Below are positions 37,238-56,851 of a DNA stretch of 64,000 nucleotides, piece after piece. Both the position numbers and the translations under genes were made by a program. This DNA comes from Halogeometricum rufum (GTDB taxonomy: Archaea > Halobacteriota > Halobacteria > Halobacteriales > Haloferacaceae), in assembly GCF_900112175.1 (NCBI RefSeq), contig NZ_FOYT01000001.1:1798001-1862000 (forward strand), read 5' to 3'. The notes beneath the pieces are model-generated. The model was not told the DNA's origin. It worked only from the letters and a program-made list of their open reading frames with translations, and searched no databases. Position 1 is the first letter of the stretch. Each line of letters starts with the position of its first letter.

Positions 37238-38308
37238 ATGAAGCTACTGCAGGTGACGCCGCGGTATCCGCCGCAGTCCGGCGGCGTGGAGACGCACGTC
37301 CGCGAGCTAGCCGAACGGCTGGTCGAACGCGGCCACGACGTGACCGTCCTCGCCGCCGACGCGGGCGACGGCGGTTTCCGGCGGGAGCGACGGAACGGCG
37401 TCCGGGTGCGCCGGTATCGGAGCCTCGCGCCCGGCGGCGCGATGCACGTCTGTCCGCAACTCGCGGCGGCGGTCCGCCGTGCCGACGCGGACGTCGTCCA
37501 CGCGCACAACTACCACTCGTTCCCCCTCCTGTTCGCCGCCCTCGGCGCCGGCGACCGGCCGTTCGTCGTCACCACCCACTACCACGGCGCCAGCGCCGAC
37601 TCGGTGCGCGACAGACTGCTCTCCGCGTACCGTCCCGTCGGCGGGTGGGCCGTCCGCCGCGCCGACGCAGCGATAGCGGTCAGCGAGTGGGAGCGGGAGC
37701 GGTTGGCGGCCGACTTCGGCGTCGAGGCGACGGTGGTGCCGAACGGACTGGACGTCGAGCGCTTCGCCGCGGCCGACCCGCCGGACCGCGACCGGCCGTA
37801 TCTCCTCACCGTCGGACGGTTGGAGGAGTACAAAGGCGTCCAGCACGCGATTCGAGCGCTCGCGGACCTCCCCGACTACGACCTGCTCGTCGCCGGGAGC
37901 GGACCGTACCGCGAGGAGTTGGGCCGAATCGCCCGACGGGAGGGCGTCGACGACCGCGTCGAGTTCCTCGGCTACGTGGACGACGGCGCGCTGCCGGGAC
38001 TGTACGCCGGCGCGGCCGTCTACCTGGCGCTGAGCGAGTTCGAGTCCTACGGCATGACCGTCGCCGAGGCCATCGCGGCGGGGACGCCCTGCGTCGTCCG
38101 CGAGTCGGGCGCGCTGGTCGACTGGGCCGGGCGGCGCGGGTGCGTCGGCGTCGACTCCGTCGCGCCGGCCCCCGTCGCGGCCGCCGTCGGGGCGGCGAGC
38201 GATGCGGTCCCGGACGCGTCGGCGCTCCTCGGTTGGGACGACGTCGCCGAGCGCCTCGCGTCGGAGTACAGAGCGCTTTTGTCGTCCGATGAAAAGGGGG
38301 ACGCATGA
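37238..38308 (+). CDS. GT4-family glycosyltransferase
   Basis: A 356-residue GT-B enzyme. The N-terminal Rossmann half contains TPRYPPQSGGVETHVRELAERL and HAHNYHSFPLLFAAL. The C-terminal half has VVPNGLDVERF, LLTVGRLEEYKGVQHAIRAL and the EX7E motif in EFESYGMTVAEAIAAGTP. It has no membrane segment, so it acts at the cytoplasmic face. It follows the GT2 gene after 16 bp and overlaps the sulfatase-like gene by 4 bp (ATGA), which implies a shared product. Confidence 0.9.
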   Translation: MKLLQVTPRYPPQSGGVETHVRELAERLVERGHDVTVLAADAGDGGFRRERRNGVRVRRYRSLAPGGAMHVCPQLAAAVRRADADVVHAHNYHSFPLLFAALGAGDRPFVVTTHYHGASADSVRDRLLSAYRPVGGWAVRRADAAIAVSEWERERLAADFGVEATVVPNGLDVERFAAADPPDRDRPYLLTVGRLEEYKGVQHAIRALADLPDYDLLVAGSGPYREELGRIARREGVDDRVEFLGYVDDGALPGLYAGAAVYLALSEFESYGMTVAEAIAAGTPCVVRESGALVDWAGRRGCVGVDSVAPAPVAAAVGAASDAVPDASALLGWDDVAERLASEYRALLSSDEKGDA

Positions 38309-39669
38309 ACGTCCTGCTCGTCACCGTCGACTCGCTCCGCGCCGACCGCGTCAACGAGGAGGTCATGCCGTTCACCCGGTCGTTCGCCGACGACGCCCTG
38401 GAGTTCACCGAGTGCGTCGCCAACGGCCCGGCGACGCCCGCGTCGTTCCCCGCGATTCACGCGAGCCGCCACTTCGCGAGCATCGAGGGACTGGGCATCC
38501 CCGCCGAGGGCGGCGGCGTCGTCACCCTCGCCGAACGACTGCGCGACGCCGGCTACGCGACGAGCGGGTACACGGACAACCACTTCGCCAGCGGGTCGTA
38601 CCACTTCGACCGCGGGTTCGACCGGATGCACGACGCCAGTAGCACCACCGAGGCGGGGAAGTTGAAGCAGTTCGTCCAGTCGAACCTCGACAAGGACGGC
38701 GCCCTGTTCAAGACGATAGAGCGGGTCTACACCCGCGTCGACGCGCTCTGGTCCACGACGACGGGCAACGAGAGCGAGTACGAACGCGCCGAGTCGCTCA
38801 ACCGACGAACCCTCGACTGGATCGCCGAACGCGACGACGACGAGGACTGGTTCGTCTGGCTCCACTACATGGACGTCCACCACCCCTACGAGGCGCCCGA
38901 CGAGTACCAGCGGCAGTTCCTCGACGACCCCGAGAGCGTCGCCGAGTGCCGCCGCCTCTCCCGGAAGGGGACGCACCACCCCGAGGAGATGACCGAGGAA
39001 GAGTGGGAGACGATACGCCGACTCTACGACGCCGAGTGCGCGTACACGGACGACCAGTTCGAGTCGCTGCTGTCCGAACTGGACGAACGCGGGATTCGCG
39101 ACGACACCGTCGTCTGCCTCACCGCAGACCACGGCGAACTCGTCGGCGAACACGGCCACGCGGGCCACCCGCCGGAGTTCTGGGAGGGCATCGTCCGCGT
39201 GCCGTTCGTCGTGGACGGCGTCGACGAGACGGGGACGGTGGACGGGCAGGTCCGCCTCATCGACCTCCCACCGACGCTGACGGACGCCGTCGGCCTCGAC
39301 GCGACGGCGGCGTGGCAGGGCGAGTCGGCGCTGGCCGTCGCGCGCGGCGACGCCGACGCCCGCGAGTTCGCCTTCGGCGACGTGGGCCGGCAGATAGACT
39401 ACACGCGGAGCTACGTCCGCCGCGCCGACGGCTGGAAGCTGATGCGCCACGGCGACGACGGGGAGTTCCTCTACGACGTCCGCGCGACGCCCGCGGAGGC
39501 CCCCGAGGACAACCGCGTGGACGACTCGCCCCCCGAGTACGCCGACCTGACCGACCGACTGGACGAACATCAAGAGCGGATGGCCGCCCTGCGGAGCGGC
39601 GACGGCGGCGTCGACGAGGACGACGAGATGGTCGAACAGCACCTGCGCGAACTCGGCTACCTGGAGTAG
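38305..39669 (+). CDS. Sulfatase-like hydrolase/transferase (AP superfamily)
   Basis: A 454-residue alkaline-phosphatase-superfamily enzyme. Metal sites are VTVDSLRADR at the N-terminus, HYMDVHHPYEAP, and TADHGELVGEHGHAGH late in the chain. The nucleophile region reads GPATPASFPAI: no Cys/Ser-x-Pro-x-Arg sulfatase signature, so it is unlikely to be a formylglycine sulfatase and more likely a phospho- or phosphoglycerol-type hydrolase or transferase. It has no signal peptide. It ends LRELGYLE, the tail shared by the other five members in this locus. It is coupled by ATGA overlap to the GT4 gene. Confidence 0.85.
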   Translation: MNVLLVTVDSLRADRVNEEVMPFTRSFADDALEFTECVANGPATPASFPAIHASRHFASIEGLGIPAEGGGVVTLAERLRDAGYATSGYTDNHFASGSYHFDRGFDRMHDASSTTEAGKLKQFVQSNLDKDGALFKTIERVYTRVDALWSTTTGNESEYERAESLNRRTLDWIAERDDDEDWFVWLHYMDVHHPYEAPDEYQRQFLDDPESVAECRRLSRKGTHHPEEMTEEEWETIRRLYDAECAYTDDQFESLLSELDERGIRDDTVVCLTADHGELVGEHGHAGHPPEFWEGIVRVPFVVDGVDETGTVDGQVRLIDLPPTLTDAVGLDATAAWQGESALAVARGDADAREFAFGDVGRQIDYTRSYVRRADGWKLMRHGDDGEFLYDVRATPAEAPEDNRVDDSPPEYADLTDRLDEHQERMAALRSGDGGVDEDDEMVEQHLRELGYLE

Positions 39670-39685
39670 CGGCCGCCCGGCGTTC

Positions 39686-41083
39686 TCAGAGGTAACCCAG
39701 GTCTTCGAGTCGCTGGCTCGCGCTCTCGTCCACGTCGATGCGGTCGATGCTCTCCGTCGACTCGTCGAACGAGTCGAGGTAGGCGTCCATCGTCTCCACC
39801 AACTCCTCCCGTCGCGGGTGGTCCGAGAGCGGCGGTCCGGCCTCGAACTCCTCCTCGGTCGTGTCGTACAGTTCGACGGACTCCCCCTGCCGAATCAGCT
39901 TCAGGTCGTCCACGTACAGGGCGTGCTGTCCGGCGGTGTCGTCGCCGTACCGGCTCCAACTCCACGACCCCGAGTAGTCCTGCGTGAGGACGTGCTCGTG
40001 GTCCGCGAAGACGCTCGGCACCTGCGCGTGGTCCGCGTCCGCGCCGACGAGTTCGGCGACGGTGGCGTACAGACCCAGCGTGTTGACGCGTCCGTCCCGG
40101 CGTCCCGGGTCCTCGTCCATCTCCGCCGGCGGCTTGACGACCAACGGGACGCGGACGCCGGGTTCGTACAGGTGACCGTGGCCCATCGCGCCGTACTCCC
40201 CCAGACACTCGCCGTGGTCGGCCGTTATCGCGAACAGCGTGTCGTCCCACTCGCCGCGCTCCTTCAGGTCGTCCACGAGGCGGCCGACGTGCCGGTCGAG
40301 GTAACGTATCGACCCGTCGTACAGGCGTTCGTGGACGTCCATCGAGTCCGCCGGATACTCGCCGTCGGGGTGCTGTTGGACGCCGACGTCGTCCACCCGG
40401 TCCTCGTCGACGAACCGGTAGCGGTCCGCTCGCGGAAGTTTGTAGAGGTGCCGGACGTCCTTCATGTGCGCCTCGCTGTAGTGGGCGTACAGGAACCACG
40501 GCTCCGAGGCGTCGTCGAAGAACCGCGTCGCCGCCCGCGTCGTCTCCGTCGCGCCGTTGTCGTCGTCAGCGCCGAACAACTCGAAGCGGAACTGGAGGCC
40601 GTTGCCGACGTGCGAGAGGAAGTTCCGGTCCAGCGACGCGCGGAGGAAGCTGAGGTAGCGCCGGTGACTCGGGAGGTGTTTGTGCTCGTTGAAGAACTTC
40701 CGGACGTTCATCCCCCGTTCGAACCGGTGTTCGACGGCGTCGAACCGGTCGACGCCCTGGTCGAACCCGAACCCGGGGGTGACGAACGGGTTCGTCGTCA
40801 CCGCGCCCGTCTCGTGGCCGGCGTCCGCCAGCAGTTCCGGCAGGTGGGGCACGTCCACGTCGAGCGTCCCGCGCTGGCCGGCCCGGTGGTCGCCGGGGTA
40901 CAGGCCGGTGAAGAGGGAGGCGGTGGAGTCGAGGGTGACGGGGGCGGGGGAGATGGCGCGTTCGAAGACGACCGACTCGTCGGCGACCGAGTCGATGTTC
41001 GGCGTCGTCGGACGGGAGTGGCCGTAGCAGGACAGATTGGCCGCTCTCACCGCGTCCAGGACGACGATGCAGACGTTGACCAT
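39686..41083 (-). CDS. Sulfatase-like hydrolase/transferase (AP superfamily)
   Basis: 465 residues with metal motifs VVLDAVRAANLSCYGHSRPTTPNID, YAHYSEAHM and ITADHGECLGEYGAMGHGHLY. The nucleophile region is SPAPVTLDSTASLFTG, a Thr/Ser type without the C/S-x-P-x-R motif. The C-terminus is QRLEDLGYL. It has no signal peptide or membrane segment. It is a single transcription unit on the minus strand with its own TATA box and a 15-bp palindrome between the box and the start, which suggests separate regulation from the genes around it. Confidence 0.85.
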   Translation of the reverse strand: MVNVCIVVLDAVRAANLSCYGHSRPTTPNIDSVADESVVFERAISPAPVTLDSTASLFTGLYPGDHRAGQRGTLDVDVPHLPELLADAGHETGAVTTNPFVTPGFGFDQGVDRFDAVEHRFERGMNVRKFFNEHKHLPSHRRYLSFLRASLDRNFLSHVGNGLQFRFELFGADDDNGATETTRAATRFFDDASEPWFLYAHYSEAHMKDVRHLYKLPRADRYRFVDEDRVDDVGVQQHPDGEYPADSMDVHERLYDGSIRYLDRHVGRLVDDLKERGEWDDTLFAITADHGECLGEYGAMGHGHLYEPGVRVPLVVKPPAEMDEDPGRRDGRVNTLGLYATVAELVGADADHAQVPSVFADHEHVLTQDYSGSWSWSRYGDDTAGQHALYVDDLKLIRQGESVELYDTTEEEFEAGPPLSDHPRREELVETMDAYLDSFDESTESIDRIDVDESASQRLEDLGYL

Positions 41084-41095
41084 TTAAATACTGCC

Positions 41096-41110
41096 TTCGG
41101 CGACGCCGAA
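41096..41110. promoter_or_regulatory. Palindrome between TATA box and start of the 39686-41083 gene
   Basis: TTCGGCG-A-CGCCGAA is a perfect 7-bp inverted repeat with a single central base. It is placed just downstream of the TATA box at 41113-41119 where a repressor would block initiation. Confidence 0.45.
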
Positions 41111-41112
41111 CA

Positions 41113-41119
41113 AATATAT
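41113..41119 (-). promoter_or_regulatory. TATA box of the 39686-41083 sulfatase-like gene
   Basis: ATATATT on the minus strand is centred about 33 nt from the ATG at 41083. Confidence 0.5.
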
Positions 41120-41184
41120 GTCGGTTCCGCGGGGGAGGCGTCCGAGCGCGGGCGATGCGCCGCCGGTGACCCCGGGCGCTACTG

Positions 41185-42534
41185 CTACTCCAGATAGCCG
41201 AGTTCCGAGAGTCGGTCTCTGGTCGCGTCGTCGACGTCCATCGTCTCCTCGCCGTACACGCCGGCGTCGACGGAGTCGAGTGCCGCCCGGAGGTCCTCGG
41301 GCACGTCCTCGCGCGGGTCTGACTCGCCGGGGTCCGCCGAGAGGTCGAACCAGACCGCCTCGTCGAGGCCGGGGACGACCACGAGTTTCGCGTCGTCCAC
41401 CCAGACGGCGCGCTGGTCGTAGCCGTACGCCGTCTCCTCGCAGAGGACCGGCCGGGACGGGTCCGGAGCGCCGAGTTCGGCCCCCGTCGTCGCCGGCGCG
41501 TCCGCCACGTCGAGGGCGTCGAGGACCGTCGGAACCACGTCCACCAGCGAGACGCGTTCGTCGGACGTTCCGGACGGCAGGGTCGGCGCGTCGACCCACA
41601 GGGGCACGCGGGCGACTTCTTCGAGGACGCTGTGTCCGTGGTCGGTGGCGTAGAACCCGCGCGGGTCGTCGTTGAGGCGGCGTTCCAGCGACGGATGCTC
41701 CCAGAACGCCTCGCCGTGGTCGCCGCAGACGACGACCACGGTGTCGTCGGGGACGGCGTCGAGGAGGCGCGCCAGTTCGTCGTCGGCCCCGCGGACCGAC
41801 GCGTCGTACGCGCGCCGTCGCGCGTCGGCGTACGCCTCGAACCCCTCGCCCGACGCCTCCTCGCGGAAGCGCCAGTCTTCGAGGCCCTCGACGTCCGGCA
41901 CGTCGAACGTCTCGCGGTGGTCCGCGGGCACGTCGAGGGGCGCGTGCGGGTCGCCGAGGTGGAGGTGGAGGAACCACCGGTCCCGGCCGTCCACCCAGTC
42001 GAGCGCTCTCGACACCTGGTCGGCGGCCGGCGTGTAGCGCATGTCGACCGTCTGGAAGCGGTCGCCCGTCGCCTTCGCCGCCATCGGAATCGCGGTCAGC
42101 ATCGCCGTGTCGTAGCCGGCCGATTCGAGGAGTTCCGGAATCGTCGGCACCGACGCGGTGGGTCGCGCGGGGAACTGCTCTGACGAGAGGTCCCGGTACT
42201 CCGTCTCGAACCGGCCGCCGTGTTCGTGCGGGTAGCGACCCGACAGCAACGACGGGACCGAGGGGAACGTCCACGGACTCGGCGCGACGGCGTGCGAGAA
42301 CGCCGCGCCGTCGAACGCGTCCAGCGTCGGCGTCGTCGACCGGTCGTGTCCGAACGCCGAGACGTGGTCCGCGCGGAGGCAGTCGACGACGACGAACAGC
42401 ACGTTCCGCGGGTCCCCGACCGTCGCGTCGTACGAGACGTCCCTGTCCCGGCGTTCCAGCCAGTGTTTGACCTTGTGGCGCGTGTTGACGAACGCGTTGT
42501 TCAGGCGGGGGAAGCGCTGCAGCGGGTTGCTCAT
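41185..42534 (-). CDS. Sulfatase-like hydrolase/transferase (AP superfamily)
   Basis: 449 residues. After a basic N-terminal helix (about 1-35; KVKHWLERRDRD) come the metal motif FVVVDCLRADHVSAFGHDRSTTPTLD, the nucleophile region SPWTFPSVPSLLSG (Thr), HLHLGDPHAPLDVP and VVCGDHGEAFWEHP. It ends DRLSELGYLE. The reading frame stays open far upstream but this is antisense to other genes; the real ATG at 42534 overlaps the stop of the next upstream gene (ATGA). It is the last gene of the GT4 - AP - AP minus-strand run. The Thr nucleophile again argues against classical sulfate-ester cleavage. Confidence 0.85.
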   Translation of the reverse strand: MSNPLQRFPRLNNAFVNTRHKVKHWLERRDRDVSYDATVGDPRNVLFVVVDCLRADHVSAFGHDRSTTPTLDAFDGAAFSHAVAPSPWTFPSVPSLLSGRYPHEHGGRFETEYRDLSSEQFPARPTASVPTIPELLESAGYDTAMLTAIPMAAKATGDRFQTVDMRYTPAADQVSRALDWVDGRDRWFLHLHLGDPHAPLDVPADHRETFDVPDVEGLEDWRFREEASGEGFEAYADARRRAYDASVRGADDELARLLDAVPDDTVVVVCGDHGEAFWEHPSLERRLNDDPRGFYATDHGHSVLEEVARVPLWVDAPTLPSGTSDERVSLVDVVPTVLDALDVADAPATTGAELGAPDPSRPVLCEETAYGYDQRAVWVDDAKLVVVPGLDEAVWFDLSADPGESDPREDVPEDLRAALDSVDAGVYGEETMDVDDATRDRLSELGYLE

Positions 42535-44084
42535 TCGACGTACCCCAGGCTCTTCAGCGTCTCCTCGACGTCTCGCTGGTCGGCCCGGTTGTCGCCGGTG
42601 CCGACGGCCGTCGCCGGTCCGGTCTCGACCGCGCGGTCGGCGGCGTCGCCCGCCAGCACGGCGTCCACCACGTCGCCGTCGACGTCCGCGGGAACGGGGG
42701 CACCGAGGTAGTGCAGAACCGTCGGCGCGAGGTCGTACAGCGTCAGGTCCACGGCGTCGTCGGCCGTCGCCACGTCCTCGCCCCACGCGGCGAACACGCC
42801 GGTGCGCCGGTGGGTCGCCAGCCACTCCAACCGCTCGCCGAACACCTCGCCGCCGAGCGATTCGGGCGCGTCCACGCCGGTGGTGTACTCGACGACGAGG
42901 TCCGGCGACCGCGCCATCTCGCCGGTGTAGACGTCCGCGGGGCGGTGGACCGCGGCGGCGACCGGTCGGCCGTCGGGCGTCTCCAGCGACTCGATGGCCC
43001 CCGCGAGTTCGGAGAGGTACTCCTCCTTGGCCGCCGCGGTGTCGAACGCGCGGTCGTTGACGTAGACGGGACCGCGGCCGAGCGAGATGGCCTTCGTCTC
43101 GTCCCAGTCGATGGGGGCGTCCTGGACGGAGACGCGGCCGCTCTCGCTGGGGAACAGTCGCTGCACCGACTCCGGCACCAGCGCCTGCGCGAGGTTGACG
43201 AGTCCGAGGCGGCCGACGAGCGACTTCAGGCGTTCCTCCGTGAGTCCGACGCTCGCGAGTGCGCCGCGCTTGGAGTCCTCGCCGACGACGAGTTCGCCCC
43301 GGTCGGCCAGCCACTGGTTGACGAGGAACGTCTCGTCTATCTCGACGAAGCCGTGATCGCTCATGAGGAAGACGGCCTCGGTGTCGTCTCGGTCGAGGAG
43401 TTCGCCGAGTCTGTCGTCGATACGTTCGTACAGGCGGCGCACGTCGTCGGGACGGTCCCAGAGGCGGTGCTGGACCGTGTCGGTGACGAAGACGGTGGTG
43501 TGGACGAGTTCGCAGTCCTTCTCGGTCGCCAGCCACTCGGCCGCGTCGAACCGCTGGTCGGCCAGCGTCCGCGCCTCGGCTATCAACTCGTCGGGGTCGG
43601 CCTCGCTCAGGACGAGGTCGGGTTTCGTCCGGTAGTTCGGCACCGCGTCGAGCAGTTCCGACTTCAGCGACGACGGCGCGGTGAACTCGCCGCGCTCGGA
43701 GGCGGGACTGCCGGCGACGGTCAACACGCCCTCGGCCGTCCGCGGCGGGTGCGTGGTCGGCATGTTGACGGTGGCCGCCCGCCGGTCCGCGGCGGCGAGG
43801 ACGTCCCAGTACTCGCGCGACCGGAAGTCCGAGGAGTCGTTCGTCGTTATCTCGCAGTCGTCGCGCTCGAACGCGAACCACTCGTACACGCCGAGTTTGC
43901 CGGGGGTCTTGCCGGTCGAGTAGCACTTCCACGCGGGAAAAGTGATGGGCGGGAGCGTGCTCTCCAGGTCGCCGACGACGCCCTCGGCGGTCAACCGTTC
44001 GAACGCCGGGAGGTGCCCGTCGTCCATCCAGCGTCGGAGGAGTGACCAGTCGGCACCGTCGAGGCCGACGACGTAGACGGTCAT
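42531..44084 (-). CDS. Type I phosphodiesterase/nucleotide-pyrophosphatase-like enzyme
   Basis: 517 residues, alkaline-phosphatase superfamily. The N-terminus VYVVGLDGADWSLLRRWM carries the first metal aspartate, then LPPITFPAWKCYSTGKTPGKLGVYEWF with a Thr nucleophile, typical of NPP/phosphonoacetate-type phosphodiesterases. FVTDTVQHRLWD and LMSDHGFVEID follow. The C-terminus is EETLKSLGYVE. It has no signal peptide. Its TATA box overlaps the stop codon of the GT4 gene upstream, so it can be transcribed alone as well as with that gene. It is a close relative of the plus-strand gene at 46291. Confidence 0.85.
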   Translation of the reverse strand: MTVYVVGLDGADWSLLRRWMDDGHLPAFERLTAEGVVGDLESTLPPITFPAWKCYSTGKTPGKLGVYEWFAFERDDCEITTNDSSDFRSREYWDVLAAADRRAATVNMPTTHPPRTAEGVLTVAGSPASERGEFTAPSSLKSELLDAVPNYRTKPDLVLSEADPDELIAEARTLADQRFDAAEWLATEKDCELVHTTVFVTDTVQHRLWDRPDDVRRLYERIDDRLGELLDRDDTEAVFLMSDHGFVEIDETFLVNQWLADRGELVVGEDSKRGALASVGLTEERLKSLVGRLGLVNLAQALVPESVQRLFPSESGRVSVQDAPIDWDETKAISLGRGPVYVNDRAFDTAAAKEEYLSELAGAIESLETPDGRPVAAAVHRPADVYTGEMARSPDLVVEYTTGVDAPESLGGEVFGERLEWLATHRRTGVFAAWGEDVATADDAVDLTLYDLAPTVLHYLGAPVPADVDGDVVDAVLAGDAADRAVETGPATAVGTGDNRADQRDVEETLKSLGYVE

Positions 44085-44106
44085 ACTGGGTCACTCGGCG
44101 CTGTGG

Positions 44107-44114
44107 CCTTAAAG
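44107..44114 (-). promoter_or_regulatory. TATA box overlapping the GT4 stop codon
   Basis: On the minus strand CTTTAAGG contains the TAA stop of the GT4 gene and is centred about 26 nt before the ATG at 44084, an internal promoter built on a stop codon. Confidence 0.5.
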
Positions 44115-45143
44115 TGCTTCGAGTACGCGGCGGAACGCCTCGGCGAACGCGGCCCTCCGGGAGTCGGCGTCGAACGTCGACCCGCGTTCGCGGGCGCGGT
44201 CCGACAGTCGCCGCCGTTCTGCGGGCGCGCGGTCGAAGTACGTGGCGACGCCCTCGGCGATGGACGCCGGCGTGGGCGAGACGACCAAGGAGGGGTCGAT
44301 GCGGCGCGCCTCCGACCGGGTGCCGGTCGTGTCGGTGACGACGGGCGGGAGGCCGGCGCGCATCGCCTCGAGGACGCTCACGGGGAACGTGTCCATCCGG
44401 GACGGTTGGACGTAGACGGACGCCGGCGCGAGGGCGTCCGAGAGGTCCTCGACGTAGCCGCGGACGGTGACGCCCTCGGTCCGTTCGTACGACTCGGGGT
44501 GGCCGCCGCCGACGACGTGGAGTTCGGCCTCGGGGTGTCGCTCCCGGACCCGCGGCCACGCCTCGACGAGCAGGTCCACGCCCTTGTACCGACTCGGCCG
44601 GCCGACGGTGACCGCCACTTTGTCGTCCAGCGCGGGCGAGACCCCGCCCAGCGCGTCGTACACGTCCGGTTGGACGTACGGGTGCGCGACTTCGATGGGG
44701 GCGTCGTCGCCGACGACGGGACGGGTGAAGTCGGCGGCGAACTCGGAGACGGCGACGACGCCGTCGACGTAGCGGTGCCCGACGGCCCGAATCGCCGGCG
44801 TCCCGAACCGGCCGACCAGCGACTTCAGCCCCGAACTCCCCTCGAAGTCGTCGCGGCCGAGGCTGTACAGCCCGTGGTCCGCACAGAGGTAGACGAGGCG
44901 CGACCCGCGGACGACGCGGTTGACGAGGGCGGCGTAGAGCGGTCGAGAGCCCTCGACGAGGTAGACGTCGTAGGCGGGCGCGCGGAGGCCGTTCACCACG
45001 TCCGCCGGGACGCCGTCGCCGACCCAGTCGGGCGCGAACCCCCGGAAGTCGACGAGGTCGGCGCCGACGGCCTCGGCGAATCCCGCGTGGGCCGGGTGCG
45101 GGTCCTGATACAGCATCGCGACGCGGGCGGAGTCGAGGTCCAT
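44109..45143 (-). CDS. GT4-family glycosyltransferase
   Basis: A 344-residue GT-B enzyme. The N-terminal half has YQDPHPAHAGFAEAVGADLVDF and YLVEGSRPLYAAL; the C-terminal half has VAVTVGRPSRYKGVDLLVEAWPRV, LHVVGGGHPESYER and the donor-binding SRMDTFPVSVLEAMRAGLPPVV. There is no membrane segment. It probably adds one sugar to the lipid-linked glycan on the cytoplasmic face. It is the first gene of the minus-strand run that includes two AP-superfamily genes. Confidence 0.88.
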   Translation of the reverse strand: MDLDSARVAMLYQDPHPAHAGFAEAVGADLVDFRGFAPDWVGDGVPADVVNGLRAPAYDVYLVEGSRPLYAALVNRVVRGSRLVYLCADHGLYSLGRDDFEGSSGLKSLVGRFGTPAIRAVGHRYVDGVVAVSEFAADFTRPVVGDDAPIEVAHPYVQPDVYDALGGVSPALDDKVAVTVGRPSRYKGVDLLVEAWPRVRERHPEAELHVVGGGHPESYERTEGVTVRGYVEDLSDALAPASVYVQPSRMDTFPVSVLEAMRAGLPPVVTDTTGTRSEARRIDPSLVVSPTPASIAEGVATYFDRAPAERRRLSDRARERGSTFDADSRRAAFAEAFRRVLEAL

Positions 45144-45248
45144 CGTCGGGAACCGTCTCGCACGGGGAGCAAAAGTGAACCGGAGTGTCCCGCCCGCGAC
45201 GCGGCGTCGCCCAGCGCCCGTCGCCGCGTCCGGTTCGGCTATCGACAG

Positions 45249-45255
45249 GTATATC
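45249..45255 (+). promoter_or_regulatory. TATA box of the 45286 gene
   Basis: GTATATC is centred about 34 nt before the ATG at 45286. The oppositely directed GT4 gene starts about 110 bp to the left. Confidence 0.5.
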
Positions 45256-45285
45256 TCCGTCGTGCGGGGTACTCCCCACCGAGAG

Positions 45286-46203
45286 ATGAGCCTCGGGAAC
45301 TGGCTGGACCGCGCGGAGATGCAGGTAGACCAGTACGGCCCGGTCGCGGGGTCGAAGGCGGCCCTCGGGTCGCTGGTGTCGGGGGTCTCGCACCGACTCA
45401 GCGGGCTGTACCCGCGCGGCGGGACGAACGTCTACGACGACGAGTGGGACCTCCTCCTGGTCCTCGACGCCTGCCGCGTGGACGCCCTGGAGGCCGTCGC
45501 GCCCGAGTACGACTTCGTCCCGAACGCGGTCCCCAGCATCCGGTCGGTCGCCCCCAACTCCCACCTCTGGATGGAGCGGACGTTCGCGGCGCGGCCCGAG
45601 GCGGTGGCCGACACGACGTACGTCACCGCCAACGGCCACGTCGAGGACTTCGACGGCGACCAGTTCGCCCGGTTGGAGAAGGTGTACGAGCACGGCTTCG
45701 ACCGGGAGTTGGAGACGATTCCGCCGCGAGCGGTGACGGACGCGACGGTTTCGGCGCTCCGGTCGGACGCGACGCCCCGAACCATCGCCCACTACATGCA
45801 GCCGCACACTCCCTATCGCTCGCTCGGACTGGACGGCCTCGGCGGCGGCGACGACAAGGCGTTCCGCGAGACGGTGTGGGACTGGATTCTCGCCGGGAAA
45901 CTCTCCCGAGACGAGGCGTGGGAGCACTACCTCGACAACCTCCGGTGGGTGCTGGACGACGTGGAACTCCTCCTCCGGAGCGTCGACGCCGACCGGGTGG
46001 TCGTCACCGCGGACCACGGCGAGGCGTACGGCGAGTGGGGCGCGTACGGCCACTCGGCGACGGGCGAGTTCGACGGACTCAGGCGGGTTCCGTGGGTTGT
46101 GACCGACGCCACCGACGACGGCGAGTACGAACCCACGGCCGCCGAGTCCGACGACGAACAGGTCGACGTGGACGAACAGCTGAAGTACCTCGGCTACGTC
46201 TGA
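45286..46203 (+). CDS. Short sulfatase-like AP-superfamily protein
   Basis: 305 residues, clearly shorter than its paralogues (about 450-530). It keeps LLVLDACRVDALEAV (first metal Asp), IAHYMQPHTPY and VVTADHGEAYGEWGAYGHS, and it ends DEQLKYLGYV. An N-terminal amphipathic helix (LGNWLDRAEMQVDQYG) precedes the core. The nucleophile loop is reduced (SIRSVAPNSHLW), so activity is uncertain. Start at 45286 chosen because of the TATA box and because upstream residues are basic. Probably the same biological role as the other AP members of the locus. Confidence 0.8.
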   Translation: MSLGNWLDRAEMQVDQYGPVAGSKAALGSLVSGVSHRLSGLYPRGGTNVYDDEWDLLLVLDACRVDALEAVAPEYDFVPNAVPSIRSVAPNSHLWMERTFAARPEAVADTTYVTANGHVEDFDGDQFARLEKVYEHGFDRELETIPPRAVTDATVSALRSDATPRTIAHYMQPHTPYRSLGLDGLGGGDDKAFRETVWDWILAGKLSRDEAWEHYLDNLRWVLDDVELLLRSVDADRVVVTADHGEAYGEWGAYGHSATGEFDGLRRVPWVVTDATDDGEYEPTAAESDDEQVDVDEQLKYLGYV

Positions 46204-46261
46204 GCGGCCGGTTTCGGCTTCACCTCCGGACTCTGACTCGCTCGCACCGAGACCCGGTCCG

Positions 46262-46268
46262 TTTTTAT
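46262..46268 (+). promoter_or_regulatory. TATA box of the 46291 operon
   Basis: TTTTTAT is centred about 26 nt before the ATG at 46291, a leaderless start for the AP-enzyme/flippase pair. Confidence 0.55.
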
Positions 46269-46290
46269 GCTGACTGTCGAATGAGTCGCC

Positions 46291-47892
46291 ATGCGCGCGC
46301 TACTGGTCGGACTGGACGCGGCGTGCCTCCCCGTCCTCGAACCGCTGTTCGAGGCGGACGCCGTGCCGACGCTTCAGTCGTTGTTCGACGACGGCGTCGC
46401 CGGTCCGTTAGAATCGCAGATTCCGCCGTGGACGGCGAGCGCCTGGCCCTCGATGTACACCGGGAAGAACCCGGGGAAACACGGCGTCTTCGACTTCCTC
46501 TCGTTCGACGGCTACGACTGGGACATCGTCAACGGGACGGACCTGAAGGCCCGGACCGTCTGGGACTACCTCCACGAGGCGGGCCTGACGAGCGTCGTCG
46601 TGAACGCACCCGTCACCGACCCCCCACGTGACATCGACGGCGCGGTGGTTCCCGGCTACCTCGCCCACAACGACCCGCGGTGTCACCCCGAGGGACTGCT
46701 GGACGAACTCCGCGAGGAACTCGGCGGCTATCAGGTGTACGCGAACCGCGAGACGGACGAGACGGTGGACGACGCGGCGAAGTTCCGCGAGTACGTCCGC
46801 TTGACCGAGTCGCGCGGCGAGGCGTTCAGGTACCTCGCCGACCGGTTCGACCCCGACTTCGGCTTCGTCCAGTTTCAGAAGACCGACGCCGTCTTCCACG
46901 ACTTCCCCGGCGACTTAGAGAAGGTCCGGGAGATATACGAGACGGTCGACGCCGAACTCGAACGGATACTCGACGAGTTCGACCCCGACAACGTCGTCGT
47001 CGCCTCCGACCACGGCATGGGCGAGTACGACGGGTACGAGGTCCGCGTGAACGAACTACTCCGCCGCGGGGAGTACACCGAGACGACGACGGACGGCCAC
47101 GGCGTCCCCTCGTGGTTCCAGATAAAGGACGAACAGTTGGTCGAGGACGACACGGACGGCGAGTCCGACCGCCTCCAGCGACTCGCCCGGGCCGCCGGGA
47201 AGGCCGGGCTGACGTACCAGCGCGGGAAGGCGATTCTCGAACGTCTCGGGCTCGCCGAGTTCGTCGGCCGACACGTCCCCGTCAGCGCCGTCTTCGCCGC
47301 CAGCGAGACGGTCGACTTCGCCGAGTCGGTGGCGTACCTCCGCTCGTCCTCGGAACTCGGCGTCCGACTCAACGTCGCGGGCCGCGACCCCGACGGGAAG
47401 ATTCCGCCCGCGGAGTACGAGTCGGTCAGGTCCGACCTCGTCGAGTTCCTGTCGGCGCAGGAGACGCCCGACGGCGACCCCGTCTTCGAGGACGTCGTCC
47501 CCCGCGAGGAGTACATCCACGGTCCCTTCGCGGACGACGCGGTGGACGTGCTCTGCGTGCCCGCGGACTTCGAGCACTCGCTGTCGATGATCGTCGACGA
47601 ACCGTTCGTCGCACCGGAACCGTGGAACCACAAGCTGGAGGGGGTCGTCGCCCTCCGCGGCGACGACGTCGATTCGGCGGCGTCGCTCGACGGCGCGCAC
47701 CTGTTCGACGTGGCCCCGACGCTGCTCTCGCTGTTCGGCGTCGCGCCCGCGACGGACATGGACGGCGAGTCGCTCGGTCCCGTGACCGCGGTGCCGCCCG
47801 AGTCGTACGACGAGTTCGAGCCGCGGACGCGCGTCCGGACGGACGACGACGACGTGACGGAGCGGCTGGCCGACCTGGGATACCTCGAATGA
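46291..47892 (+). CDS. Alkaline-phosphatase-family phosphodiesterase-like enzyme
   Basis: 533 residues. LLVGLDAACLPVLEPLF holds the first metal aspartate. The nucleophile region PPWTASAWPSMYTGKNPGKHGVFDF has a Thr at the active position, as in NPP-type and phosphoglycerate-mutase-like members. FVQFQKTDAVFHDF and VVASDHGMGEYDGY give the remaining ligands. It ends TERLADLGYLE. The stop overlaps the ATG of the flippase gene (ATGA), so this phosphatase-like enzyme is made together with the lipid-linked glycan flippase. Leaderless start. Confidence 0.87.
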   Translation: MRALLVGLDAACLPVLEPLFEADAVPTLQSLFDDGVAGPLESQIPPWTASAWPSMYTGKNPGKHGVFDFLSFDGYDWDIVNGTDLKARTVWDYLHEAGLTSVVVNAPVTDPPRDIDGAVVPGYLAHNDPRCHPEGLLDELREELGGYQVYANRETDETVDDAAKFREYVRLTESRGEAFRYLADRFDPDFGFVQFQKTDAVFHDFPGDLEKVREIYETVDAELERILDEFDPDNVVVASDHGMGEYDGYEVRVNELLRRGEYTETTTDGHGVPSWFQIKDEQLVEDDTDGESDRLQRLARAAGKAGLTYQRGKAILERLGLAEFVGRHVPVSAVFAASETVDFAESVAYLRSSSELGVRLNVAGRDPDGKIPPAEYESVRSDLVEFLSAQETPDGDPVFEDVVPREEYIHGPFADDAVDVLCVPADFEHSLSMIVDEPFVAPEPWNHKLEGVVALRGDDVDSAASLDGAHLFDVAPTLLSLFGVAPATDMDGESLGPVTAVPPESYDEFEPRTRVRTDDDDVTERLADLGYLE

Positions 47893-49328
47893 GCCGGGAC
47901 ACGGCGTCGTTGAGTCTGGGTCGCGAGGCGCTCATCGGCTTCGTCGCGAAGATACTCCTCGCGGGGATGGGGTTCGCCGGCATCGTCGTCTACTACCGGT
48001 TCCTCGGCCCCGAGACGCTCGGCATCTACTACACCGTCCTCGCGGCGGCGAACGTCGTCGCCCAACTCGTCGGCGGGTTCGCGTCGGCACTGCAGAAGCG
48101 CGTGAGCGAGAAGCAGACCGACCTCGCCGAGTACATCGGCGTCGGCTTCGTCGTCTACGTCACCGTCGTCGGCGCGGGCGGCGTCCTCGCCTACGCCCTC
48201 GAGTCCTCCCTCTCGAACTTCTTCCTCTCCAGTCGCCACCTCTGGGGCGGCGTCGGCATCTTCGCCAGCCTCAGCCTGTTCACGGTGACGAACCGCATCT
48301 ACTCGGGCGTCGGCAAGCCCGGGCTGGCGGTCTGGACCGACGCCGCGCGGAGCGTCCTCACCCTCGCGCTGCAGGTCGGCCTGCTCCTCGTCGGATTCCG
48401 CGAGTTCGGCCTCATCTACGGCTACGTCGGGGCGACGCTGGTCTGCGCGCTGGGCGTCCTCGTCCTCATCGGCGTGCGGCCGGTGATACCGTCGAGACGA
48501 GCGCTCGCGCGCACGTGGGAGTTCGCCAAGTGGAGCGTCCCCTCCGGCTTCGCGAGCAACCTGTACGGCCGCATCGACGTGCTCATCCTCGCGAGCCTCG
48601 TCGGCAGCACGGCCGTCGGGCTGTACGAACCCGCCCACCGACTCACGGTGCCGGCGACGTTCGTCGCCACCAGCGTGGGCGTCTCGCTCACGGTGAAGGC
48701 GAGCGGTCTCAGTTCCATCGGCGAGAGCGTCGAACACGACCTGCGCAACGCCGTCTCCTACACGATTCTCCTGGCGGCCCCGCTGTTCTTCGGTGCCCTC
48801 GCCATGCCGGAGGCGCTGATGCGGACCATCTACGGCCCGTCCGCGACGGCCGGCGCGATGGCGCTCGTCGGCCTCGCGCTGTTTCAGGTGTTCAACTCGT
48901 TCCAGCTCCCGTTCGACAAACTCGTCTCGGGCATCGACCGACCCGAGATAAATCTGGGCGTCAGCGTCGTCACCATCAGCATCGACGTCGTGTTGGCCGT
49001 CTTCCTCGCGCGGGCGTACGGGCTGGAGGGCGTCGTCGCCGCCACGATTCTCTCCGAAGTCGTCCGGGTCGTCATCTTCCAGGGCATCCTCTACCGCATG
49101 TTCGGCTCGTTCGTGCTGACGCGGCCGGTGATAGAGCAGCTAGCCAGCGCGGTCGTGATGTTCCTCGCCGTCGAGGGCGTCCTCCTCGCGTTCTCCATCC
49201 GGAGCGTGCTCGACCTGTTGCTGGTCGTCGGGCTGGGCGGCGTCGTCTACTTCGGCTGCCTGCTGGCCGTCAGCCCGCACTTCAGACTCACGCTCGACAA
49301 CGTGCTGGGCGACTTCGTCCCGAACTGA
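47889..49328 (+). CDS. aglR: Wzx/AglR-like polysaccharide flippase
   Basis: A 479-residue membrane protein with about 12-14 helices of the MATE/polysaccharide-transport (RfbX/Wzx) family. GREALIGFVAKILLAGMGFAGIV starts the first helix; YYRFLGPETLGIYYT and WSVPSGFASNLYGRIDVLIL are typical. In Haloferax volcanii AglR, at the equivalent place in the cluster, contributes to translocation of the dolichol-phosphate-mannose intermediate. The start overlaps the AP-family gene by 4 bp. The symbol is by position and family; other Wzx roles are possible. Confidence 0.82.
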   Translation: MSRDTASLSLGREALIGFVAKILLAGMGFAGIVVYYRFLGPETLGIYYTVLAAANVVAQLVGGFASALQKRVSEKQTDLAEYIGVGFVVYVTVVGAGGVLAYALESSLSNFFLSSRHLWGGVGIFASLSLFTVTNRIYSGVGKPGLAVWTDAARSVLTLALQVGLLLVGFREFGLIYGYVGATLVCALGVLVLIGVRPVIPSRRALARTWEFAKWSVPSGFASNLYGRIDVLILASLVGSTAVGLYEPAHRLTVPATFVATSVGVSLTVKASGLSSIGESVEHDLRNAVSYTILLAAPLFFGALAMPEALMRTIYGPSATAGAMALVGLALFQVFNSFQLPFDKLVSGIDRPEINLGVSVVTISIDVVLAVFLARAYGLEGVVAATILSEVVRVVIFQGILYRMFGSFVLTRPVIEQLASAVVMFLAVEGVLLAFSIRSVLDLLLVVGLGGVVYFGCLLAVSPHFRLTLDNVLGDFVPN

Positions 49329-49383: not shown

Positions 49384-50718
49384 TCAGGTCGCCGTCGCGC
49401 GCTCCGAAGCGAGCCACAGACTGAGCAGGTAGAGCAATCCGACGGCGTACACCGCGGGCTGGAGGAGTTTCAACAGCGGTTCGCCGTCGAGCATCCCGGC
49501 GAGGTTCGGGTGTCCGTTGCCCACCAGCACCTCCATCGCGTAGGTGTGGGCGTGCGCGAGGAGGAACGACAGACCGAGGAGGGCGAACGGCCACCCGTCG
49601 GCCCGGTAGCAGTGGACGCCGAGGACGACGAACGCCGCGAGGGCGAGTCCGAGGTCGATGAGCGTCGTGCTCTGCAGGAGAGTGAACAGCATGACGATGG
49701 AGAGCGCGAAGAGAGGCACGTCGTAGTCGGACCGGCCACGGACGTAGCGGGCCCACACCCACGCGATGGGGAGGACCGAGAGGAGTCGAGGTACTATCGC
49801 GACCCCGCCGAGGAACGGGAACGGCCGAATCGCCTCGACGCTCCACTCGGTGATGGGTTCGAGTCCGCCGGACTCCGCGAGTGCCTCCGAGGCGACGATG
49901 GCGTAGTAGTGCGCCGTCGTCTCGACGCCGAACGCGAAGACGGAGAGGGCGTTCGCGGCGGCGAAGGCGGCGAGGAAGCCGACCACGCCGCGCCAGCGAC
50001 GGTCCGCGGGGGAGATGAAGACGGCCAGCGGCGACATCCAGTACGGCTTCAGAATGGTCGGGACGACGAGGGCCGCACCGCCCAGTCCGTCGTCCGACCG
50101 GCGATACGCCCACCACGCGACGGCGGTGCAGAGGTACGCGAACGGCGTCACCTGCCCGACTTTGAAGTTCGCCACCATCGGCGCGAACCCGACGGACGCA
50201 GCCGAGAGCCCGAGTAGCGCCCGCCGAGAGAGGTCGAATCCCACGCTGGAACTCTCGGCGTCGAGCAGGAGGTACGTCCCGCCGGCCGTCGCGAGGAGCG
50301 AGAGGCCGAACAGCAGGTACTTGAACGCGACGTAGCCGAACAGCGAGATGGCGGCGAAGAAGTAGTAGGTGACCGGGAGGTAGTGGTACTCCTGGACGTT
50401 GTCCGGTTGCCACGTGTTGTAGAGGGGCCCACCGCTCCAGACGCGCACGACCATGTTGTAGAACGCGTCGGCGTCCGTCGGACTCTCGATGGCGAACCGG
50501 TAGTCGGCGTCGGACGGGACGACGATGTCGCCGTCGGGTCGCGTCTCGGTGTCCGTGTACTCGATGTCGCCCCGTTCGGTCGACTTCAGCACGCCCGCGC
50601 CCGCCAGCGCGCCGACGAGGACGACGTTCGCGACGCAGGCGAGGACGCAGAGCCAGAGGACGGTTCGACGAGACGGGAGAGCGGGCGAGAGGGCACTCTC
50701 GTACCACGACTGAGTCAT
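49384..50718 (-). CDS. GT87-like membrane glycosyltransferase (possible AglS counterpart)
   Basis: 444 residues with about 9-11 membrane helices. The first (about 16-37) is followed by a large extracellular loop (about 40-100: YRFAIESPTDADAFYNMVVRVWSGG), then the helical core with PMVANFKVGQVTPFAYLCTAVAWW, a lysine-containing VPTILKPYWMSPL and IGWAVR-like hydrophobic repeats. This is the polyprenyl-phosphate-sugar-dependent GT-C/GT87 (DUF2029) pattern. It acts on the outer face. In Haloferax AglS adds the final mannose from dolichyl-phosphate-mannose, and this gene sits in a comparable place, so an AglS-like role is plausible but unproven. ATG 50718 preferred over an upstream TTG. Confidence 0.75.
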   Translation of the reverse strand: MTQSWYESALSPALPSRRTVLWLCVLACVANVVLVGALAGAGVLKSTERGDIEYTDTETRPDGDIVVPSDADYRFAIESPTDADAFYNMVVRVWSGGPLYNTWQPDNVQEYHYLPVTYYFFAAISLFGYVAFKYLLFGLSLLATAGGTYLLLDAESSSVGFDLSRRALLGLSAASVGFAPMVANFKVGQVTPFAYLCTAVAWWAYRRSDDGLGGAALVVPTILKPYWMSPLAVFISPADRRWRGVVGFLAAFAAANALSVFAFGVETTAHYYAIVASEALAESGGLEPITEWSVEAIRPFPFLGGVAIVPRLLSVLPIAWVWARYVRGRSDYDVPLFALSIVMLFTLLQSTTLIDLGLALAAFVVLGVHCYRADGWPFALLGLSFLLAHAHTYAMEVLVGNGHPNLAGMLDGEPLLKLLQPAVYAVGLLYLLSLWLASERATAT

Positions 50719-50747
50719 TCGATTACTGTCTGGATTCGACAAGGCCT

Positions 50748-54373: not shown

Positions 54374-55666
54374 TCAGACGAGCGACTCGTAGACGATGCC
54401 GTCGCGGCGCGTGACGATGCGGCGGCCGTCGACGACGACGGGGTCGGCCATCGCGTCGAACTCGTCGTCGAGGGCGGCGAACTCGTCCCAGTCGGTGACG
54501 ACGAGGGCGGCGTCCGCGCCGGCGAGGGCGTCGGCCGCCGAGTCGGCGTAGTCGATGTCGGGGAACTTCTCGCGGAAGTTCGCCGTCGCGACGGGGTCGT
54601 AGCCGACGACGTCGGCCCCGGCGTCGCGGAGGGCGTCGACGAGGGGGATGGCGCGCGAGTTGCGCACGTCGTCGGTCCCGGGTTTGAACGCCAGTCCGAG
54701 GACGGCGACGCGCGCGCCGTCGGGGTCGACGCGTTCGCGGAGGATGTCGAGCATGCGGACGGGCTGGCGGTCGTTCACCTCGACGGCGGCTTCGAGCATC
54801 GCCGGGTCGTAGCCCGCGTCGCGGGCGGCGGCGACGATGGCCGCCACGTCCTTCGGGAAGCAACTGCCGCCCCACCCGACGCCCGCGGCGAGGAACTCCG
54901 CGCCGATGCGGGAGTCGAGACCGATGGCGTCGAGCACCTCGTAGGAGTCGACGCCGTACTCCTTGCAGACGTTGGCGAGGTCGTTGGCGAGCGAAATCTT
55001 CGCCGCGAGGAAGGCGTTGTTCGCGTACTTTATCATCTCCGCCTCGCGGATGCCCGTCTCCACGAGTGCGGCCTCGGGCGCGCGTTCGAGGAGGGGGTCG
55101 AATATCTCTCGGAGCGTCTCGGCCCCCCGGTCGGTCCGGGAACCGAGGACCACCTTGTCGGGGTCGAGGAAGTCGTCGACGGCGCTGCCCTCCCGCAGGA
55201 ACTCGGGATTCATCCCCACGTCGAACCCTTCGCCTTCGGTCTTGCCGGAGTGCTCCTCGAGGAGGGGCGCGATGACCTCCTCGGTCGTCGTCGGAATCAC
55301 CGTGCTCTTGGTGACGACGAGGTGGGAGCCGTCCTTCTCCGCGAGCGTCGCGCCCAGCGACTTCGTGGCCGCCTCCATCACCGAGAGGTCGATGTGGCCG
55401 TCGTCGTCGGAGGGCGTCGAGAGGGCGAGAAACGTCGCGTCCGTGTCGAGGACGGCGTCGTAGTCGGTGGTCGCGCGGAGTCGGTCCCCGGCGTGCCGTT
55501 CGACGAGTTCGTCCAGACCGGGTTCGTGGATGGGCGACTGCCCGGCGTTCAGCGTCGCGACGACGTCCTCGTCGATGTCGACGTTGACCACGTCGTGGCC
55601 CAGGTCGGCGAAGCACGCGGCGATGGTCGTGCCGACGTACCCACTCCCGATGATGCTGAGCTTCAT
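54374..55666 (-). CDS. aglM: UDP-glucose 6-dehydrogenase
   Basis: A 430-residue NAD-dependent enzyme making UDP-glucuronate for the hexuronic acids of the N-glycan. Rossmann motif [19 protein letters not shown] at the N-terminus, substrate segment [16 protein letters not shown], and the catalytic Cys269 in [12 protein letters not shown]. The C-terminal NAD/UDP domain has [19 protein letters not shown]. It is adjacent to aglB and convergent to it, as in Haloferax volcanii, where AglM has this activity. Confidence 0.94.
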
Positions 55667-55816
55667 TGTCAGCTATCACTCGTCGTGAGCGTTTGAACGT
55701 TCGCCCCAGTCTCGGAAGCTGACACCGGACGCGGCCGACTCCCAGCGACGCCAGCCGAGTCGCACGCACTCGCGCGGAGCGAAACACGGGAGTACCCTGA
55801 CGACGAACGACCCTCC

Positions 55817-56851
55817 ATGTCGAAGCCCTCGGACGACGCTCGCGGGCAACTCACCGCCTCGTGGGTCGTCGTCTTCCTCAAAGGCATCTGTATGGGCGCC
55901 GCCGACGCCGTCCCCGGCGTCTCCGGCGGCACCATCGCCTTGGTGACCGGAATCTACGAACGACTCATCGCGGCCGTCACGGCCGTCTCCCCCGGTCGAA
56001 TCGTGGACGTGCTTCGCGGCGTCACCCCCGGCGGCCGCGCGGAGGCCGTCGCGGCCCTGAAGGAGATGGACGTCGGGTTCCTCGTCGCCCTCGGCGGCGG
56101 TATCGCCGTCGCCGTCGTCAGCATCACCCGCGTCGTCCACGTCGGCATCACCTCCTATCCGGTGCCGACGTTCGGCTTCTTCTTCGGCCTCATCGCCGCC
56201 TCCGCGTGGGTGCTGTTCTCGGAAGTCGAAGTCGACACGCCGTCCCGAATCGTCGCCGCCGTCGCCGGCTTCGCCTTCGCGTTCGTCGTCTCCGGGCAGG
56301 CCGCCGCGTCGTTCGGGACGGGTCTCCCCGTCACCGTCCTCGCCGGCGCTATCGCCGTCAGCGCGATGATTCTCCCCGGCATCTCGGGGTCGCTGTTGCT
56401 CATCCTCCTCGGGCAGTACGAACACATGACCGGCGCGCTGAAGTCGTTCGTCGACGGCGTCCTCGGACTGGTCGTCGGCGGGTCGTTCGCGCCCGTCGCG
56501 GAGAACGGCGTCGTCGTCGTCGCGTTCATGCTCGGCGCCGTCGTCGGTCTGCTCACTGTCGCGCACGCCGTCCGCTGGGCGCTGGAGCACTACCGCGAAC
56601 CGACGCTGGCGTTCCTCGTCGCACTCATCGTCGGCGCGCTCCGCGCGCCCATCGCCAAGACGGGCGAGCAACTGGCGGAACTCGGCCGCGTCTGGACGAC
56701 GGAGGCGTACGGCGTCTTCGCCGCGACGGCCGTCGTCGGCGCAGTCGTCGTCCTCCTCGTGGACCGCTACGCGGGACTCGCGGAGATAGACGACGAACGG
56801 ATCGAGGAGGAGACGGGCGACGAGGCGGCGACGAGCGGCGGCCTCGACTGA
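55817..56851 (+). CDS. DUF368 polyprenyl-phosphate transporter family (PopT-like)
   Basis: A 344-residue membrane protein with about 9-10 helices and the DUF368 signature FLKGICMGAADAVPGVSGGTIALVTGIYERLI at about 18-50, repeated in a second half as SAMILPGISGSLLLILLGQYEHM. The two G-x-SGG / GISGS re-entrant-loop-like motifs show the inverted-repeat design of the family. In bacteria DUF368 (PopT) proteins recycle undecaprenyl phosphate across the membrane. Here the gene is divergent from aglM and near aglB, so it is a good candidate for returning dolichyl phosphate after glycan transfer. That function is inferred. Confidence 0.9.
   Translation: MSKPSDDARGQLTASWVVVFLKGICMGAADAVPGVSGGTIALVTGIYERLIAAVTAVSPGRIVDVLRGVTPGGRAEAVAALKEMDVGFLVALGGGIAVAVVSITRVVHVGITSYPVPTFGFFFGLIAASAWVLFSEVEVDTPSRIVAAVAGFAFAFVVSGQAAASFGTGLPVTVLAGAIAVSAMILPGISGSLLLILLGQYEHMTGALKSFVDGVLGLVVGGSFAPVAENGVVVVAFMLGAVVGLLTVAHAVRWALEHYREPTLAFLVALIVGALRAPIAKTGEQLAELGRVWTTEAYGVFAATAVVGAVVVLLVDRYAGLAEIDDERIEEETGDEAATSGGLD

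Follow-up and report, generated by a model that had tools for sequence, protein, structure and literature searches.

Proteins of the DUF368 and DedA families have been proposed to act as C55-P translocases (Sit et al. 2022, PMC9876793; here and below, from the available part of that article). Loss of the bacterial DUF368 relatives, which act on bare C55-P, raises surface C55-P, and the DUF368 family has been reported to depend on pH and Na+ and to be enriched in halophiles, including the class Halobacteria (PMC9876793). In the same work, HVO_RS12060 of Haloferax volcanii partly complemented a V. cholerae delta-vca0040 mutant. Dolichol phosphate is mentioned in general terms only in the available part of the article, and a word search of it found neither aglB nor "glycosyl".

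On the side of N-glycosylation, AglB of H. volcanii is encoded by HVO_RS12050 (PMC7749143, available part) and takes its glycan from a dolichol phosphate carrier; for one Halobacterium glycan, the donor is dolichol pyrophosphate (PMC3871713, available part). What H. volcanii AglB releases could thus re-enter the cycle with no need of a pyrophosphatase. The haloarchaeal flippases for charged dolichyl phosphate (Dol-P), AglR and Agl15, are only provisionally assigned (PMC3871713, available part). The Haloferax N-glycosylation cluster has been described as extending from aglJ to aglM (PMC5867893, available part), a boundary that would fall one gene short of DUF368. As HVO_RS12060 lies two locus tags from aglB, we infer that the protein tested in V. 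cholerae is the aglB-linked orthologue, and the Haloferax loci of our samples (L004-L006 and G078) are consistent with this. To our knowledge, the route by which the spent dolichyl-phosphate carrier is returned after N-glycosylation in archaea has not been established.

Among open-licence PMC papers, none dealing with aglB and DUF368 together was found, nor any transport or glycosylation assay of an archaeal DUF368 protein in its own host; HVO_RS12060 appeared only in Sit et al. 2022, and the available part of a survey of uncharacterised archaeal membrane proteins (PMC5898192) does not mention COG2035. The novelty of the prediction made for this gene in a first-pass annotation is consequently partial: the coupling of aglB and DUF368 was not found in this literature, but complementation by the H. 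volcanii protein had already been published (PMC9876793, available part). The family is already known; the new part is its conserved coupling to the oligosaccharyltransferase.

The DUF368 gene, its product and its surroundings

The window analysed here is a stretch of 64,000 nucleotides from Halogeometricum rufum, and the features discussed are collected in Table 1. The first-pass annotation had located a DUF368 gene near aglB and aglM, and this is borne out by the PF04018 match of a 344-residue ORF with an ATG start, which has aglM as its direct neighbour and aglB as the next gene but one. The match (E 8e-66, against a cut-off of 26 bits) extends over residues 26-279 and covers positions 1-229 of the 246 of the profile, which places the protein in the Pfam family "VCA0040-like", described as undecaprenyl phosphate translocase-like. 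Its scores fall below the cut-offs of the NCBIfam PopT equivalogs (400 bits; 198.4 for NF052564 PlprenPhTpVIBCH and 84.1 for NF052563 PopT) and, judged from its sequence, it is a member of the wider family that is not filed as either of the named bacterial equivalogs. A genome search found one copy each of DUF368, AglB and AglM in H. rufum; the nearest named DUF368 loci are those of Halogeometricum pallidum (83% identity) and H. limi (82%).

Table 1. Features of the locus (positions within the window)
Feature	Position	Strand	Basis
GT4-like glycosyltransferase, same surface-glycan cluster	44109..45143	-	PF13692, PF00534 over cut-off
Wzx-like polysaccharide flippase (Polysacc_synt), possible outward flippase for lipid-linked glycan	47889..49328	+	PF13440, PF01943 over cut-off
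GT87-family glycosyltransferase, upstream of and divergent from aglB	49384..50742	-	PF09594, 60 bits (cut-off 25)
AglB oligosaccharyltransferase, 1083 aa	50904..54155	+	TIGR04154, 961 bits (cut-off 450)
AglM, UDP-glucose 6-dehydrogenase	54374..55666	-	NF041297 equivalog, 762 bits (cut-off 670)
Divergent intergenic stretch aglM/DUF368, 150 bp	55667..55816	.	ORF coordinates
DUF368/PopT-family membrane protein, candidate Dol-P recycling transporter	55817..56851	+	PF04018, 222.5 bits
First conserved motif, residues 30-39 (D-A-V-P-G-V-S-G-G-T)	55904..55933	+	break between helices in model
Second conserved motif, residues 187-191 (P-G-I-S-G), equivalent place in second half	56375..56389	+	conservation

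The assignment of AglB is also based on its STT3 (PF02516), AglB_core (PF22627) and AglB_L1 (PF18079) domains, and that of AglM on its equivalog match. Between aglB and DUF368, which starts 1.7 kb further downstream, aglM runs in antisense, and a separate DUF368 promoter, if any, would have to sit in the divergent intergenic stretch or further upstream. With AglM, the GT4 and GT87 glycosyltransferases and the Wzx-like flippase encoded in the same window, a span of 13 kb may cover sugar supply and glycan assembly, outward flipping and transfer, and the return of the carrier. Upstream, a series of genes of the alkaline phosphatase superfamily occupies positions 38305-47892 (three PF00884 sulfatases and two PF01663 phosphodiesterases), with the GT4 gene among them; 24 of the 80 haloarchaeal genomes sampled below have sulfatase-fold genes close to aglB. 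Beside these genes, a 342-aa ORF (45175-46203) matches no Pfam family at E 0.001, and its C-terminal end looks, by eye, like those of the adjoining members of the superfamily.

Conservation was counted in an alignment of archaeal proteins comprising 70 linked or named haloarchaeal rows, 22 of a separate clade (clade B, see below) and 17 from out-of-class archaea, the last counted without rows L137, L138 and L140. In these three groups, residues D30, P33, G34, S36, G37 and T39 are found at 94-100%, and P187, G188, S190 and G191 are also kept in all of them, as are Y47, R49, D85, S129 and Y201. The two features taken as the test of the family, a P-G-x-S-G motif in each half and homology between the N- and C-terminal halves (hhalign probability 97.7%, E 1.5e-12, compared without L137, L138, L140 and L129), are both present in the window protein. 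Its AF2 model, built from 15 sequences, is all-helical (pLDDT 79.6, pTM 0.74), with a helix break at residues 32-36, and each of the P-G-x-S-G motifs sits at such a break. R49 or D30 might, as a guess, be the point of contact with the phosphate. No PDB chain related by sequence to the protein was found, the single weak hit being spurious, and a Foldseek search with the model returned nothing below E 0.001. A ZIP zinc transporter, the best row given by VIA-align (Z 9.3, 167 residues aligned, rmsd 4.5), was rejected as a fold match because these values are in the range common for helical models.

Pairing of DUF368 with aglB in haloarchaea

PF04018 is present in 239 of 242 Halobacteria genomes. 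When the remaining three were searched with the window protein, nothing was found in G187 and G021 and a fragment (E 0.047) was found in G206; all three are assemblies of 120-180 contigs, for which such a search result would not in itself establish true loss. For gene association, 80 haloarchaeal genomes from 61 genera and 11 families were picked by hand, favouring those with few contigs. AglB was located in all 80, DUF368 in 79 and AglM, over its cut-off, in 63. The co-occurrence of DUF368 with aglB, previously put forward as a check of the recycling role, is therefore real but cannot discriminate within the class, as both genes are near-universal there, and it was discarded as an uninformative test.

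The order of the genes carries the association. In 56 of the 80 genomes, representing 43 of the 61 genera and 8 of the 11 families, the DUF368 gene follows aglB at no more than 3.2 kb; all 56 copies share the strand of aglB, and in most cases nothing lies between the two. Thus, the predicted association with agl genes in other haloarchaea holds for aglB, directly downstream of which DUF368 is found, often overlapping it. Of the 54 pairs that could be measured, 32 have the DUF368 start at -4 to +7 nt from the aglB stop, and 14 true overlaps, by 1 or 4 nt, were read from the DNA in families f1, f2, f3, f8 and f9. Abutting or overlapping stop and start codons are typical of translational coupling. 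Among the 14 named loci, aglB is upstream of DUF368 in all 12 with enough DNA. The pair often closes a same-strand run: in 26 of 49 cases, the gene predicted after it has the opposite orientation. In one genome (G234:C1:649264-652020), the TIGR04154 match is in two pieces within a single open frame, possibly reflecting an insertion in AglB.

The first-pass annotation had also named aglM as a neighbour of DUF368, a link that is not general in the wider sample: among the 63 genomes with AglM over its cut-off, only 7 have aglM and aglB as close as 3.5 kb (8 at up to 6 kb and 28 at up to 30 kb), and aglM was accordingly rejected as a key feature of the association. In five genomes (G000, G158, G014, G078 and G122), aglM occupies an aglB-DUF368 gap of about 1.8-2.5 kb. 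Since among the named loci it is found between the pair in H. limi and Haloferax marinum but not in Haloferax mucosum, its position is variable, and its presence between aglB and DUF368 is probably a local, derived and recent feature of the lineage of the window.

As a control, all predicted genes within 6 kb of the 80 aglB loci were clustered into families. The clustering takes in 54 of the 56 linked loci, the gene calls having missed aglB at L073 and L108 and DUF368 at L064, and within it DUF368 is the most recurrent neighbour (54 of 80, 49 of them at position +1, all on the same strand). It is followed by GT2 (51 of 80, multi-copy and mostly divergent upstream) and GT4 (34), and by sulfatase-fold (24), FAD-binding (23) and other families (22 or fewer). 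GT2 neighbours are spread over 10 families versus 8 for DUF368, with a mean fraction per family of 0.71 versus 0.62, and this wider spread counts against reading the DUF368 pairing as special, but GT2 is a multi-copy family lumped by the clustering. Chance or general synteny was rejected as an explanation on the basis of the recurrence of neighbour families, the scattering of aglM and the spread per family.

In 24 of the 80 genomes there is no aglB-linked DUF368, and 23 of these keep the gene elsewhere, mostly in a separate clade. In a quick maximum-likelihood tree, whose backbone is weak, 22 unlinked copies form a single clade, B (support 91), which is confined to part of families f3, f4 and f11; some rows (G129 and L137) have long branches. 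Two other unlinked copies (in G030 and G029) group with the linked ones, and in G030 DUF368 remains beside aglM with aglB elsewhere. A linked copy and a clade B copy occur together only in G005 and G193. As unlinked copies are kept in 23 of 24 genomes and mostly fall into clade B, the linked copy has apparently been replaced in some lineages, but the function as such is almost never lost. Clade B (L078-L087, L089-L097, L099, L100 and L102) seems to be the replacement in parts of three families, and the point at which it joins the tree, near Haloferacaceae, suggests transfer between families. Its neighbours have no single theme (MutS-like, M20 peptidase, thermosome, GT2 with methyltransferase and others): a GT2 gene lies near DUF368 in 5 of the 21 loci examined among the 22 clade B rows, and no consistent glycosylation neighbours were seen in them.

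DUF368 and DedA beyond the haloarchaea

In a draw of 294 genomes from the phylum, PF04018 was found in 52 of the 53 Halobacteria versus 37 of the 241 other genomes, so that the term "archaeal recycling transporter", used in the first-pass annotation, is too broad. All 37 non-haloarchaeal genomes with DUF368 also have STT3; the two genes lie within 20 kb of each other in five (G320, G328, G344, G426 and G336) and are adjacent in none of the 37. In four of the five DUF368-bearing genomes of family f30, outside Halobacteria, the distance to STT3 is 12.6-14.4 kb (L123-L126, in G328, G320, G426 and G344).

Counts made by eye in 50 non-haloarchaeal genomes lacking DUF368 (among G242-G303, some of them incomplete) gave STT3 in 45, DedA/VTT in 28, and STT3 but neither transporter in 21. 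DedA is an obvious second candidate for recycling in non-haloarchaeal genomes, and the 21 genomes with STT3 but without a match to either family make at least one further route of carrier recycling likely in other archaea. Because DUF368 is missing from most of the non-haloarchaeal genomes sampled, its distribution makes it a haloarchaeal solution at most, and not a universal archaeal recycler. Within haloarchaea, DedA/VTT matches are found in 79 of the 80 genomes of the sample, six of them in the H. rufum genome, and DUF368 may consequently be redundant or conditional. The emphasis should thus be placed on the aglB-DUF368 pair rather than on aglM, and on haloarchaea rather than on archaea.

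Proposed role and comparison with known systems

We propose, with a probability of about 70%, that the haloarchaeal PopT-family protein brings the dolichyl phosphate that AglB releases back to the cytoplasmic leaflet, and that it belongs to the same carrier cycle as AglB. In this cycle, AglB would move the glycan from Dol-P to protein at the outer face of the membrane, leaving Dol-P there; DUF368 would bind the phosphate head group in the space between its homologous halves and carry the lipid back inward to the cytoplasmic leaflet, where another glycan could be built on it. The abutting or overlapping codons of the gene pair suggest that carrier release and carrier return are probably produced together. 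We infer the substrate (Dol-P), the inward direction, the energy source (perhaps Na+) and the site between the halves at which the head group would bind; the role as a whole fits the DUF368 family and the Dol-P-based pathway. Counting against it are the equivalog cut-offs that the protein misses, the near-universal DedA, the 24 genomes with no linked copy, the mixed surroundings of the clade B copies and the lack of STT3 adjacency in the DUF368-bearing genomes sampled outside the class.

Adjacency to aglB would fit either direction of transport, and DUF368 might instead be an outward flippase of lipid-linked oligosaccharide that feeds AglB, a reading helped by the provisional status of AglR and Agl15 (PMC3871713, available part). 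We regard this as quite unlikely, since the bacterial relatives act on bare C55-P, the surface level of which rises when they are lost, and the Haloferax protein can partly replace one of them (PMC9876793, available part); additionally, the window encodes a Wzx-like flippase, the usual outward type, and members of that family are found near aglB in 22 of the 80 genomes. It is also unlikely, to a lesser degree, that DUF368 serves every surface glycan as a recycler of polyprenyl phosphate, exopolysaccharides and AglB-independent glycans included, under alkaline or high-Na+ conditions, with DedA acting otherwise and the pairing reflecting shared regulation. The pH and Na+ dependence of the family and its enrichment in halophiles (PMC9876793, available part) agree with such a general function, as do the single DUF368 copy of most genomes, the 23 genomes in which that sole copy is unlinked and the presence of DedA in all but one of the 80; but a general housekeeping role would not demand so close a link, one that is restricted to aglB and goes as far as codon overlap in several families.

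The pairing could, finally, be a neutral and functionally uninformative remnant of an ancestral gene order, as all 80 genomes come from one class with shared ancestry and 24 of them have lost the order. We consider this very improbable: other aglB neighbours are less well kept, with the exception of pathway-type glycosyltransferases (GT2 and GT4, the rest being present in 24 or fewer of the 80), aglM of the same pathway is scattered, and the orientation is constant in all 56 linked genomes.

The inward return of Dol-P by DUF368 is thus the reading that we prefer, and the aglB-DUF368 pair names a strong candidate for this step that can be tested in a tractable host, H. volcanii. The answer would be limited by those other archaea that have STT3 but no match to DUF368 or DedA. 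As a more speculative and rather doubtful extension, AglB and the adjacent DUF368 protein might form a physical unit in the membrane that hands Dol-P straight to an inward path powered by the Na+ gradient of the hypersaline environment, the linked clade being a PopT lineage specialised in Dol-P.

With VCA0040, SAOUHSC_00846 and PopT, the bacterial undecaprenyl-phosphate translocases, the window protein shares the family PF04018, and the partial replacement of VCA0040 (PMC9876793, available part) is a result obtained with the Haloferax orthologue, not with the window protein. The haloarchaeal DUF368 differs from bacterial PopT in its genetic pairing with an oligosaccharyltransferase and in its expected carrier, dolichyl phosphate. 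Unlike the hosts of bacterial PopT, that of the window protein has no peptidoglycan. The DedA/UptA polyprenyl-phosphate flippases (VTT, PF09335) have the same proposed job and occur in the same genomes, but they form a separate Pfam family and, by coordinates, none of the 50 non-haloarchaeal genomes examined has one next to STT3. AglR and Agl15 of Haloferax volcanii are of the Wzx-like type and not DUF368 proteins. They belong to membrane steps of the same Dol-P cycle, and differ from DUF368 in that they are proposed to move charged Dol-P outward (PMC3871713, available part).
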